In this document: positions 48,331 through 64,000 of the stretch, in pieces
Layout: each line of letters opens with the position of its first letter
Position numbering within the stretch: position 1 is the first letter of the stretch
NCBI RefSeq assembly: GCF_011074795.1
Contig: NZ_JAAMPF010000029.1
Location: 62,001 to 126,000, forward strand
Reading direction: 5' to 3'
DNA: 64,000 nt
From: Marinobacter salicampi
GTDB lineage: Bacteria; Pseudomonadota; Gammaproteobacteria; Pseudomonadales; Oleiphilaceae
Position numbers and translations under genes: made by a program
Notes under the pieces: generated by a model
What the model saw: only the letters and a program-made list of their open reading frames with translations
Database searches by the model: none
What the model was told of the DNA's origin: nothing

Positions 48331-49329
48331 ATGCAGGACCTACTGTCACAGGATGAAATCGACGCGCTTCTGCACGGCGTTGATGATGGTGACATCGATA
48401 CTTTCGACGACTCGGATGAGGGCGGCGTAAGAGACTACGACCTGGCCAGTCAGGACCGTATCGTTCGCGGTCGCATGCCGACCCTGGAAATGATCAACGA
48501 ACGGTTTGCCCGCTATACCCGGATCAGCCTTTTCAATCTTCTGCGCCGTAATGCCGACGTTTCCACCGGCGGTGTTCAGATTATGAAATTCGGTGAGTAC
48601 ATCCATACGCTCTACGTACCCACCAGCCTCAATCTGGTGAAAGTGAGGCCGCTGCGGGGGACAGGCCTGTTCATTCTGGACGCCAAGCTGGTGTTCAAGC
48701 TGGTAGATAACTTTTTCGGTGGCGAAGGCCGCCATGCCAAGATCGAAGGCCGGGAATTCACGCCGACCGAAACCCGGATCGTACAGATGGTCCTGGACCA
48801 GGTCTTCCACGACATGAAGGAGGCCTGGCATGCGGTACTGAAGGTGGACTTCGAGTACCTGAGCTCTGAAGTCAACCCGGCCATGGCAAACATCGTAAGT
48901 CCCAGTGAAGTGGTGGTTATCAGTACCTTTCACATTGAACTCGACGGCGGTGGCGGGGAGCTTCACATGGCCCTGCCTTACTCCATGATCGAGCCTATCC
49001 GCGACGTGCTCGATGCCGGCGTCCAGAGTGATATCGACGATGTGGATGAGCGCTGGGTTAACGCCCTGCAGGAAGACATCAAGGAAGTCTTTGTCCCGAT
49101 CAATACCACTGTGGCCCGACGCCGGGTTTCACTTCGGGAAGTCGCCCGCTTCAAGGCAGGCGACATTATCCCGGTCGAATTACCTGAGTTTCTGACGGTA
49201 ACCGCGAACGGCATACCGGTTTACAACGCCTCCATGGGAACCCGTGACGGCAAACTTGCACTGAAAATTCAGAGCCGGGCCAACAAGCCGGCTGTGAAGA
49301 AGCAACTGAAGGTAGGACGCAATGGCTGA
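48331..49329 (+). CDS. fliM: Flagellar motor switch protein FliM
   Basis: 332 residues. The N-terminal CheY-P docking peptide LLSQDEIDALLHG (residues 4-16) is intact. The middle CheC-like domain contacts FliG (GGxG-type NFFGGEGRH), and the C-terminal SpoA domain joins the FliN ring. It relays CheY-P binding to a change in rotation. The last eight bases overlap fliN. Confidence 0.96.
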   Translation: MQDLLSQDEIDALLHGVDDGDIDTFDDSDEGGVRDYDLASQDRIVRGRMPTLEMINERFARYTRISLFNLLRRNADVSTGGVQIMKFGEYIHTLYVPTSLNLVKVRPLRGTGLFILDAKLVFKLVDNFFGGEGRHAKIEGREFTPTETRIVQMVLDQVFHDMKEAWHAVLKVDFEYLSSEVNPAMANIVSPSEVVVISTFHIELDGGGGELHMALPYSMIEPIRDVLDAGVQSDIDDVDERWVNALQEDIKEVFVPINTTVARRRVSLREVARFKAGDIIPVELPEFLTVTANGIPVYNASMGTRDGKLALKIQSRANKPAVKKQLKVGRNG

Positions 49330-59921: not shown

Positions 59922-60734
59922 ATGAGTAAAGTTCATCCAGTACAGGTCATAGCAGTTACCGGCGGCAAAGGTGGCGTTGGCAAGAGCAACGTGTCCGTTA
60001 ACCTGGCCATTGCGCTGTCTCAGATGGGGCGTCGGGTAGTGGTGCTGGATGCGGACCTTGGTCTCGCCAATATCGATGTATTGCTGGGTATCACCTCCAA
60101 CCGAAATCTTGCTGATGTGCTGGCGGGCGAGTGTGAGTTGCGTGACGTGCTTGTGGACGGCCCCGGTGGCATTAAGATTGTGCCGGCCTCATCCGGAACC
60201 CAACGCATGACCCAGCTCACCGCCATGGAACATGCCGGTCTGATTAATGCCTTCAGTGATCTTGGTGATCAGATCGATGTTCTGATCGTCGACACGGCCG
60301 CTGGTATTTCCGAGTCTGTCGTGAGTTTCCTGCGGGCCTCCCAGGAACTGCTGCTGGTGGTTTGCGACGAGCCTACGTCGATCACCGATGCCTATGCGCT
60401 GATCAAGCTGATGAACCGGGATTACGGGGTCAGCCGTTTCCGTATACTGGCCAATCAGGTCCGCAACGAGCAGGAAGGTCGCCATCTGTTTGGCAAACTG
60501 ACCCGGGTAAGCGAGCGCTTTCTCGACGTTGGCCTGCAGTATGTTGGGATCGTGCCCTACGACGAAGCGGTGAAGAAGGCGGTTCAGCGGCAAAGAGCGG
60601 TGCTTGATGCCTACCCCCGAGCCAAGGCCTCTCTCGCCATCAAGGCTCTGGCCGAGAAAGTGGATAGCTGGCCGCTGCCCTCGTCGCCGAGGGGACATCT
60701 GGAATTTTTTGTCGAGCGTCTGATAGAGGTCTGA
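59922..60734 (+). CDS. fleN: Flagellar number regulator FleN
   Basis: 270 residues of the MinD/ParA family: deviant Walker A GGKGGVGKSNVSVN, then DADLGLANIDVLLG and the Walker B-type VLIVDTAAG. FleN binds FleQ, lowers its activity and so keeps one flagellum per pole; it also counters FlhF. Its place between flhF and fliA is the conserved one. Confidence 0.95.
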   Translation: MSKVHPVQVIAVTGGKGGVGKSNVSVNLAIALSQMGRRVVVLDADLGLANIDVLLGITSNRNLADVLAGECELRDVLVDGPGGIKIVPASSGTQRMTQLTAMEHAGLINAFSDLGDQIDVLIVDTAAGISESVVSFLRASQELLLVVCDEPTSITDAYALIKLMNRDYGVSRFRILANQVRNEQEGRHLFGKLTRVSERFLDVGLQYVGIVPYDEAVKKAVQRQRAVLDAYPRAKASLAIKALAEKVDSWPLPSSPRGHLEFFVERLIEV

Positions 60735-61753: not shown

Positions 61754-62137
61754 TTGGACAAAAACATGAAAATCCTGATTGTGGATGACTTCTCCACAAT
61801 GCGCAGGATCATTAAGAACCTGCTGCGCGACCTTGGTTTCACGAATACCGATGAGGCTGACGACGGTAATTCAGCCCTGCCCATGCTCAAAAGCGGCAAG
61901 TACGATTTCCTGGTCACCGACTGGAACATGCCTGGCATGTCCGGCATTGATCTGCTCAAGGCCGTTCGTGCCGATGACAATCTGAAGACCTTACCGGTAC
62001 TGATGGTTACGGCCGAGGCCAAACGTGACCAGATCGTTGCCGCGGCTCAAGCCGGCGTCAATGGCTATGTGGTCAAACCGTTCACTGCCGCGGTGCTGAA
62101 GGAAAAGATCGAGAAGATCTTTGAACGCATCCAGTAG
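61754..62137 (+). CDS. cheY: Chemotaxis response regulator CheY
   Basis: 127 residues with a TTG start at 61754: GGAGG is six bases upstream of the TTG, whereas the next ATG (61766) is 18 bases away. One receiver domain: Asp11-Asp12, phospho-acceptor Asp56 (LVTDWNMPG), the switch VTAEAK and Lys in VVKPF. CheY-P binds FliM to change rotation. cheZ starts 31 bases after its stop if the ATG there is used. Confidence 0.95.
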
Positions 62138-62168: not shown

Positions 62169-62954
62169 ATGGTCAACCAAGCGAACAATCAGAATCTCGA
62201 TCCGGAAGTGACCGAGAAGCTTAAAGCCCAGGCCACCGAACTTATGGCTCAGGTGAACGCAGGCGACTATGGCAAGGCCATGAGTCTGATCAACGACCTC
62301 AATGAGGTGCGTGATCAGAGTCTTTATCGGGAAGTGGGTCGCCTGACCCGCAGTCTTCACGAAGCCATCCGTAATTTTCAGATCGACCCCCAGAACCCGG
62401 AGCAGCAGGAAGCGCTCTCCAAGATGTCGGACGCCTCGGACCGGCTTGAGTACGTTGTGCAGATGACGAGCAAGGCGGCCAATCGCACCATGGACCTGGT
62501 GGAAGATGCCATGCCCCGGGCCAGGCTCATGCGCGAGCAGTCAAAGCTCCTGCGGGACGACTGGCAGCGCCTGCGCCGCCGCGAGATGGCGCCGGCCGAA
62601 TTTCGTGAACTGTATGGCCGCATCGACAATTTTTTTCTCACCTCGGCGGATGACGCTGAGTCTGTCTATAACAGTCTTTCGGAAATCCTGTTGGCGCAGG
62701 ATTTCCAGGATCTGACCGGTCAGGTCATTCAGAAAGTCACCACCCTGGTGAAAGAGGTGGAAGAACACCTTCTCAGCCTGGTGGTCATGGCAAGCCACGT
62801 GGACAAGATCACCGGCACCGTTCACGAGATCGACGCGCCCGAAGCCGTTTCGGCCGAGCAGGGTGTGGGGCCGCAGATTCATGCGGCGGAACGAACCGAC
62901 GTTGTGTCTGGCCAGGACGATGTTGACGACCTGTTGTCCAGTCTCGGTTTTTAA
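62169..62954 (+). CDS. cheZ: CheY-P phosphatase CheZ
   Basis: 261 residues from the ATG at 62169, like Pseudomonas CheZ (262); a TTG at 62121 would overlap cheY. The long helical hairpin holds the catalytic segment LAQDFQDLTGQVIQKV with the essential Asp/Gln, and the protein ends DDVDDLLSSLGF, the peptide that docks on CheY. It shortens the CheY-P signal. cheA starts 13 bases after its stop. Confidence 0.95.
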   Translation: MVNQANNQNLDPEVTEKLKAQATELMAQVNAGDYGKAMSLINDLNEVRDQSLYREVGRLTRSLHEAIRNFQIDPQNPEQQEALSKMSDASDRLEYVVQMTSKAANRTMDLVEDAMPRARLMREQSKLLRDDWQRLRRREMAPAEFRELYGRIDNFFLTSADDAESVYNSLSEILLAQDFQDLTGQVIQKVTTLVKEVEEHLLSLVVMASHVDKITGTVHEIDAPEAVSAEQGVGPQIHAAERTDVVSGQDDVDDLLSSLGF

Positions 62955-62967
62955 TTGAGGATATTGC

Positions 62968-64000
62968 ATGGCATTCGACGCTGATGACGAGATTCTCCAG
63001 GACTTCCTTGTGGAAGCCGGCGAAATTCTTGAAAAGCTTTCCGAGCAGTTGGTGGATCTGGAACAGAATCCTGACGACAGCAATCTTCTGAATGCTATTT
63101 TCCGTGGCTTTCACACCGTAAAAGGGGGTGCGGGGTTTCTCCAGCTCAACGCCCTGGTGAACTGCTGTCACTCCGCCGAAAATGTATTCGACACGCTGCG
63201 CAACCACAAGCGTCGGGTCGATCCGGAACTGATGGACGTTGTCCTGGAAACCCTGGACTACGTCAACGCCATGTTCGAGCAGGTGCGCAACCATGAGGAG
63301 CTTATCCCGGCGCCGGCAGAGCTCATTGCCTCCCTGGATACCTTTGCGGCACCGGCGACGGCGAGCGCGCCGGTACCAGAGGCAGTGACAGCTCAGGACG
63401 GCAATGCGGCAGCGGACGATGGCGACATTACCGATGACGAGTTCGAGCAGCTACTCGACGCCCTCAATGAGGAGCCCGGCCCATCGTCTGATGCCGCGAC
63501 CGCCCCCGGTGACGATACTGCAAACAGTGCGGGTGCTGGCGGTGATGAAATTACCGATGACGAATTCGAAGCCCTGCTGGACGATCTGCACGGCAAGGGC
63601 AGGTTTACCGGGCCGATAGCAGGTGACGAGCCCGACCCGACACCCGCAGCCGACGGTGATGACCTGATCAGCGATGATGAATTTGAGAGCCTGCTGGACC
63701 AGCTGCATGGCAAGGGCGGCAGCCCCACTGCGGCCCAGGATGGCGAGTCTGACGAAGTGGTGGCTGCTCCGCCTAAAGCTGCTCCGCCTAAAAAGGCGGC
63801 CAAGGCAGCAGCCAGGACACCGGAGCCGGCACCAGCCGAGACCGAGCCAGCAGCCTCCGGGGCACCGGCAGTTCCGGCCCGTGAAGCGTCGGCGCCGGCG
63901 GCGGAAACCACGGTAAGGGTCGACACCAAGCGTCTGGACGACATCATGAATATGGTGGGCGAGCTGGTGCTGGTCCGTAACCGTCTGCAGCGCCTGGGTT
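62968..64000 (+). CDS. cheA: Chemotaxis histidine kinase CheA, 3' end outside window
   Basis: The first 344 residues are visible. The N-terminal P1 Hpt domain has phospho-accepting His49 in FHTVKGGAG. Where a P2 CheY-binding domain could follow, there is an acidic, Ala/Pro-rich linker with three copies of [IL][ST]DDEFExLLDxL(H/N) at residues about 154-167, 195-208 and 234-247, each close to 40 residues apart. The dimerisation domain P3 starts near the end (VRVDTKRLDDIMNMVGELV). The kinase and CheW-binding parts lie beyond the window. It phosphorylates CheY and CheB in chemoreceptor arrays. Confidence 0.93.
   Translation, partial: MAFDADDEILQDFLVEAGEILEKLSEQLVDLEQNPDDSNLLNAIFRGFHTVKGGAGFLQLNALVNCCHSAENVFDTLRNHKRRVDPELMDVVLETLDYVNAMFEQVRNHEELIPAPAELIASLDTFAAPATASAPVPEAVTAQDGNAAADDGDITDDEFEQLLDALNEEPGPSSDAATAPGDDTANSAGAGGDEITDDEFEALLDDLHGKGRFTGPIAGDEPDPTPAADGDDLISDDEFESLLDQLHGKGGSPTAAQDGESDEVVAAPPKAAPPKKAAKAAARTPEPAPAETEPAASGAPAVPAREASAPAAETTVRVDTKRLDDIMNMVGELVLVRNRLQRLG

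Follow-up and report, generated by a model that had tools for sequence, protein, structure and literature searches.

The linker between the P1 and P3 domains of the chemotaxis kinase CheA encoded in the window, by which we mean the whole 64,000-nucleotide stretch of Marinobacter salicampi DNA analysed here, contains three copies of a short motif that resembles the CheY-binding peptide at the N-terminus of FliM. On balance we consider it somewhat probable that such repeated FliM-like motifs dock CheY in place of a P2 domain. This reading is favoured because of the missing P2, the conservation of the motif, its likeness to the peptides of FliM and CheZ, and a difference in the CheY face that goes with P2-bearing CheA. 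The original prediction had placed three motif peptides in the CheA linker and had quoted a FliM peptide and a CheZ tail from the same DNA, and all of these are present. No prior description of the motif was found in the open-access literature searched, a scope outside which most subscription papers lie. The features on which the argument depends are the following.

62968..64000, plus strand: cheA open reading frame, 697 amino acids with the stop beyond the window end; Pfam Hpt, H-kinase_dim, HATPase_c and CheW.
62989..63291, plus strand: CheA P1 (Hpt), residues 8-108; Pfam PF01627, AlphaFold2 helices within 7-127, Foldseek matches to CheA P1 structures.
63358..63891, plus strand: disordered P1-P3 linker with the motifs and no P2, residues 131-308; from AlphaFold2, Foldseek and composition.
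63427..63465, plus strand: motif copy 1, ITDDEFEQLLDAL, residues 154-166, without an H-G tail; helix 156-167.
63550..63600, plus strand: motif copy 2, ITDDEFEALLDDLHGKG, residues 195-211; helix 197-208.
63667..63717, plus strand: motif copy 3, ISDDEFESLLDQLHGKG, residues 234-250; helix 236-247.
63907..64000, plus strand: start of the P3 dimerisation domain, residue 314 on; Pfam PF02895.
61754..62137, plus strand: cheY, the proposed partner; Pfam Response_reg, with R92, Q94, V103 and K117 in E. coli numbering.
62910..62951, plus strand: CheZ C-terminal peptide, GQDDVDDLLSSLGF, a related peptide located in the window.
48343..48378, plus strand: FliM N-terminal peptide, LSQDEIDALLHG, a related peptide located in the window.
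59922..60734, plus strand: MinD/ParA-type ATPase frame read as flhG, a rival partner for the motif; open reading frame and domain match.

On the upstream side, cheA is preceded by cheZ, cheY, a frame resembling a sigma factor and probably fliA, and, 2.2 kb away, the MinD/ParA-type frame, which from gene order we take to be flhG. The next gene 3' of cheA is cheB, which includes a receiver domain, and also downstream are two frames probably encoding MotC and MotD, a parC-like frame for a ParA-type ATPase, a parP-like frame with a CheW domain, and a putative cheW; the parC-like frame starts 1.7 kb past the end of cheB and the parP-like frame about 2.5 kb past it. This gene order is probably that of class F6. 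Long open frames (201 and 182 amino acids, open at the window end) lie opposite the cheA linker on the minus strand at 63393-63998, as expected from its biased composition. Elsewhere in the genus, cheY, cheZ and cheA of one Marinobacter locus (L158:7792-9960) share one reading frame, with nothing but stop codons and a few further codons between them, and in three genomes (G004, G035 and G036) the cheA matches are split across frames or contain in-frame stops, perhaps through sequencing error or decay.

The window CheA has a conventional P1, in which the HTVKGG motif begins at residue 49, and no P2 that any of three approaches could detect. A Pfam scan gave no match to the P2/CheY-binding families PF09078 and PF07194, and between Hpt and H-kinase_dim it returned only a sub-cut-off SHOCT match and a weak EF-hand match. 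When P1-plus-linker stretches from the window and 37 relatives were scanned, no P2 appeared among the matches listed, which covered 25 of 32 Pfam families for these 38 stretches, and the same stretches from four Pseudomonas and one Serpens CheA likewise gave no P2/CheY-binding domain in Pfam. AlphaFold2, applied to residues 1-308 of the window CheA alone, modelled P1 with a pLDDT of about 97 and placed helices in the linker only at 156-167, 197-208 and 236-247, exactly on the three motifs, with pLDDT of 69-76 in the motif helices and 44-61 in the spacers. Only 6% of the linker residues outside the motifs are Ile, Leu, Val, Phe, Met, Trp, Tyr or Cys. Foldseek against the PDB (E up to 0.001) matched this model to P1 domains and to unrelated helix-bundle and repeat proteins, with no P2; the top match, 2lp4, is a P1-CheY/P2 entry, and its alignment of 233 columns at an rmsd of 16.5 showed no P2. 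The claim that no folded P2 precedes P3, which a P2 fold predicted in this segment was to overturn, is borne out by Pfam, AlphaFold2 and Foldseek, and AlphaFold2 predicted no such fold. Passages of PMC10782961 report that P2 is often missed by Pfam and is absent from over half of all CheA proteins, and in part of PMC11978298 the CheA of P. putida is shown with a CheY-binding domain, 'based on the Pfam database'; the Pseudomonas CheA set that we put to Pfam consisted of species other than P. putida.

The motif has the consensus I-[TS]-D-D-E-F-E-x-L-L-D-x-L-(H-G-x-G) and usually occurs in two to four copies per linker. To survey it we took 220 loci, left out eight that were CheW matches (L001-L008) to give 212 CheA frames, dropped six partial ones to give 206 full-length proteins, and reduced these to 194 distinct sequences, comprising a near-genus set of 51 and 143 others. 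A first, strict regular expression left nine of the 194 linkers without a copy; those nine held variants such as DAEFEALLDELHG, and a looser pattern was adopted, under which one copy was found in 2 linkers, two in 40, three in 104 and four in 48. Strict copies numbered 521 in these linkers, compared with 0.0 expected from shuffling, and were present in 193 of the 194, the exception (L128) having two one-letter variants. Across 200,000 shuffled versions of the window linker (178 residues), the core EF[ED].LL arose 0.00022 times per shuffle and three copies never arose together. Conservation by column was high from the start of the motif (I 93%, T/S 93%, D/E 97%, D/E 78%, E 100%, F 99%) to the end of the core (E/D 98%, any residue, L 94%, L 97%, D 93%, any residue, L/I 93%) and lower in the tail (H 70%, G 76%, any residue, G 67%). 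The spacers vary in length and are rich in Ala (25%), Pro (15%), Ser (10%) and Glu (9%), with few hydrophobics. Any two of the three window copies share only 25-30 of 39 bases, and the copies are therefore not fresh duplications.

Spacings of 41 and 39 residues in the window CheA match the description of the copies as evenly spaced and about 40 residues apart, but across the 194 linkers this regularity is loose (median 43, range 18-83). The end given earlier for the third copy, 63708, cuts it short by 9 bases. The comparison of linkers from relatives for motif number and spacing, put forward as a check on the original prediction, thus found the motif in every one of them. The copies fall into two kinds according to whether they have the H-G tail: counting H, Y, Q or N before the G, it is present on 69 of 194 first copies, 190 of 195 middle copies and 178 of 190 last copies. 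In two loci of one family (L112 in G228 and L118 in G317) the motif lies inside a longer repeat of the type LPEG-x-DPDGDITDDEFEALLNQRD, without D-x-L-H-G, and position 117 of the CheY encoded there is N or A.

The motif is a class-wide trait, which goes beyond the view taken when it was first noticed. The 194 distinct full-length CheA proteins that carry it, without exception, come from across the Gammaproteobacteria, and when a 21-position motif profile was run against 299 genomes of the phylum, 55 matched at E up to 0.01. Of these, 54 are members of that class and the other, with a borderline E of 0.007, is not. Among the profile matches listed, the open frames were mostly of CheA length, with a few shorter. 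In 12 relatives, matches below E 1e-4 fell only in CheA or CheA-fragment frames, three of the 12 having no such match. As a control we scanned other CheAs, starting from the 18 best frames and removing three without an Hpt histidine motif (L290, L291 and L293), and the motif was absent from all 15 that were left. Ten of these were put to Pfam: two had the Pfam CheY-binding domain and no motif, and eight had neither PF09078 nor the motif, so that a missing Pfam-detectable P2 is not always paired with the motif. Within the class, only 2 of 276 genomes had a match to the Pfam CheY-binding family itself.

It is established that the C-terminal peptide of CheZ binds CheY, and that FliM, the CheZ tail and P2 all bind the alpha4-beta5-alpha5 face of CheY. 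The CheA motif has the core common to the FliM and CheZ peptides, namely an acidic residue, a hydrophobic residue, any residue and two leucines in a short predicted helix. We measured the likeness by running the CheA motif profile, under two scorings, over 56,284 thirteen-residue windows taken in six frames from open reading frames of at least 60 residues in the window. The three CheA copies ranked first. With the BLOSUM profile the FliM N-terminal peptide was 5th and the CheZ tail 25th, with one unrelated peptide scoring above FliM and some 20 above CheZ; with log-odds scoring the two were 9th and 41st, with five unrelated peptides above FliM and some 36 above CheZ. The likeness to both peptides that had been claimed therefore stands above background. 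In the relevant parts of PMC6946799 and PMC9126983, the EIDALL segment of FliM is given as the CheY site. Both peptides are themselves strongly conserved, the form L-S-Q-D-E-I-D-A-L-L matching 26 of 28 FliM loci (FliM being found in 28 of 30 genomes) and the CheZ tails being near invariant among the 203 loci that have one.

The CheY proteins encoded beside motif-bearing CheAs (165 distinct sequences) have R92 in 91%, Q94 in 98%, V103 in 99% and K117 in 92%. In the two genomes in which CheA has the Pfam CheY-binding domain, both CheY proteins instead have K92, N94, A103 and E117, while the CheZ tails end in QVDDLLDSLGF and the FliM peptides are LSQEEIDALL and LSQDEIDSLM, so that the form of these peptides is kept. 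As described in portions of PMC7184735, the same substitutions occurred when CheY was recruited from an F6 to an F7 CheA; three of these residues face P2, and K117 is on the FliM-binding helix. The best evidence for CheY as the partner is that its face appears to differ with the docking element of the kinase while FliM and CheZ keep their peptides, as judged from two contrasts only. This change may be due to the gain of P2 and not to the loss of the motif. CheY lacks K or R at position 117 in nine loci, seven of which have ordinary motifs. A link between CheY position 117 and the D of the motif was also considered: a D-less motif accompanied 2 of 9 CheY proteins without K/R and 0 of 179 with K/R, but both cases belong to one family, and the link was not counted as evidence.

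These observations suggest a mechanism in which CheY would be held near P1 by two to four FliM-like linker peptides, the folded P2 being absent. Each copy would form an acid-capped amphipathic helix, E-F-E-x-L-L with acidic flanks, lying against the alpha4-beta5-alpha5 face of CheY, with its acidic residues perhaps meeting K91, R92, K117, K119 and K122. A flexible tether with several weak sites would be expected to raise the local concentration of CheY around P1, could thereby affect phosphotransfer, and perhaps hold CheB too. In part of PMC12410967, CheY-EYFP overlaps CheA-CFP at the poles of P. aeruginosa, which implies that CheY sits at the arrays in that organism. AlphaFold2 was also run on a single chain joining CheY, CheZ and the CheA N-terminus of Marinobacter locus L158, and the pLDDT readout did not point to a steadying of the motifs by CheY: in blocks of ten residues covering the motif helices it was 51-71, against 69-76 for the window CheA alone, a comparison that spans a different ortholog and a different alignment. 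The proposal that CheA may hold CheY by several linear motifs thus gains from the missing P2, the conserved repeats and the peptide likeness, but not from this structure prediction with CheY, in which, read by pLDDT from one chain, confidence in the motifs was not raised.

More tentatively, and as a broader possibility that we regard as rather doubtful, this class of CheA may have exchanged P2 for FliM mimics arranged in series, such that kinase and motor compete for CheY by the same peptide code, the array serves as a multivalent reservoir of CheY next to the polar flagellum, and the two kinds of copy serve CheY and a pole or array factor such as ParP. The proximal copies are mostly without H-G and the distal copies nearly all have it.

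The alternative that survives best, although we judge it unlikely, is that the motifs are a ParP-docking element, the linker being the CheA LID that binds the CheW-like AIF of ParP and so holds the arrays at the pole via ParC. The relevant sections of PMC7534058 and PMC5706961 place LID just before P3, have it bind ParP-AIF, and describe it as occurring only with ParC and ParP; on this description LID would overlap the motif region. The source genome has parC-like and parP-like frames beyond cheB, and both genes were in the cheA locus at 119 of 141 long loci (>11 kb). The other 22 failed a test for parC together with two frames matching the ParP profile; leaving out L170, L186 and L199, we searched the remaining 19 genomes in full. 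Five had a ParP match of at least 57.9 bits, the weakest score accepted, two were ambiguous (G067 at 43 bits and G299 at 38.4 bits), and 12 had no ParP-like match above 36.7 bits anywhere in the genome, a score at the level of ordinary CheW, the gap between ParP and CheW in the locus scan lying at 38-46 bits. The motif was kept in all 12 of the corresponding CheAs, with the full H-G-x-G tail in seven, although these genomes could have a ParP too diverged to be recognised. As such, the motif is not restricted to the setting of ParC and a recognisable ParP in which LID is reported to occur, does not depend on such a ParP, and is less readily explained by ParP as its sole function; nor does ParP docking account for the likeness to FliM and CheZ or for the difference in the CheY face. 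The ParP/ParC alternative offered by the original prediction is in this way weakened as a sole function by 12 genomes, and may still apply where ParP exists. The motif may have a second role with ParP in such organisms, for which the tail-bearing distal copies would be the natural place. We note that Pseudomonas che loci (L176:14879-15937, L179 and L182), in a set without P. aeruginosa, have a ParP-like frame scoring above 100 bits; P. aeruginosa itself is stated in part of PMC12410967 to be without related genes. The N-termini of ParP frames have a conserved peptide, A-L-x-x-Y-L-D-x-L-L, before a Pro-rich stretch; this is another acidic LL peptide and may be the ParC-binding helix.

Docking of CheY can also be set against binding of another receiver or of the kinase itself, by which the motifs would engage CheB, CheV, or the P4 or P1 domain of CheA as a built-in brake, and which we consider improbable. 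The P2 domain of E. coli CheA also serves CheB. The same is said of P2 in general terms in part of PMC11978298, and the receiver-bearing cheB is the gene next to cheA; the evidence from the CheY face is, however, specific to CheY. About as improbable in our view is docking of FlhG, or of the related ParA-type ATPase ParC, by motifs that copy the FliM N-terminus and so couple the placement of arrays to that of flagella. An interaction of FlhG with FliM via the FliM N-terminus in monotrichous flagellates is reported in the text seen of PMC12826062, and in addition to the upstream frame in the window an flhG match was found in 17 of 17 genomes. Such universal presence does not discriminate, the motifs persist where the best flhG match is divergent (29% identity in G045, 36% in G194) or in two pieces (G109), and the difference in the CheY face is left unexplained. 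The two-piece match (G109:C6:363772-364567) has a TAG inside one piece and points to a broken gene or an assembly error.

Least probable of all is that the motif does not dock CheY and is a SHOCT-type helix that brings about association of CheA or of other proteins, or a degenerate EF-hand. We retain SHOCT (PF09851) as a low-ranking rival because scanning P1-plus-linker stretches strengthened the likeness over the whole-protein score: its second half matched 35 of the 38 stretches with E-values no higher than 0.1 and as low as 1.9e-9, the window stretch scored 28.8 bits against a cut-off of 27 and 24.9 for the full CheA, and two of the five Pseudomonas and Serpens stretches passed the cut-off. 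The matches listed, however, span only positions 11-27 of the 28 in the profile (11-26 in the window), so that the first half is missing, and the whole-sequence score may sum several copies. Automatic annotation may label these CheAs as SHOCT proteins. The EF-hand_7 match is weak (14.5 bits against a cut-off of 30); a full 12-residue EF-hand loop (D1, D/N3, D/N5, G6, E12) occurred in 0 of 584 copies, with D/N1 in 8%, D/N3 in 9% and G6 in 20%, and on this count the EF-hand was rejected. Both ideas leave the difference in the CheY face unexplained.

A repeated FliM-like motif found across a class makes the holding of CheY by a P2-less CheA open to a direct and cheap test. Were CheY docking correct, response-regulator docking in chemotaxis would be possible by disordered, multivalent peptides, the change in the CheY surface on moving to a P2-bearing kinase in the line to E. 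coli could be explained, and the Vibrio LID region would be recast.

Several known systems share features with the motif. SHOCT has the I-T-x-E-E-F-type helix in the second half of its profile, but occurs once and at the C-terminus, in contrast to the several mid-protein copies here, in which the first half is missing. The Vibrio CheA-LID, as presented in parts of PMC7534058 and PMC5706961, also lies just before P3 in organisms with ParC and ParP, but it is one region that follows a P2 and is tied to ParC/ParP, unlike a motif that is repeated and present also without recognisable ParP. The CheZ C-terminal peptide, QDDVDDLLSSLGF, has an acidic residue and V-D-D-L-L followed by x-x-L-G, comparable to L-L-D-x-L-H-G in CheA; it differs in being C-terminal and single, ending in F, having V for the F of CheA, and matching the profile less well. 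Closer is the FliM N-terminal peptide, in which acidic residues precede E-[IV or F]-[DE]-x-L-L and L/I-S/T lies ahead of the core. The CheA motif is predicted to be a short helix, and the FliM peptide is published, in portions of PMC6946799 and PMC9126983, as binding CheY. FliM, however, has a single copy near the protein N-terminus, I or V where the CheA motif has F, and H-G-V after the core in place of D-x-L-H-G-x-G, a tail without a close FliM counterpart. Unlike P2 (PF09078/PF07194), which is folded and mostly present in one copy, the linker described here offers two to four short helices without a fold; like P2, these sit between P1 and P3, and they would share its task of tethering CheY.
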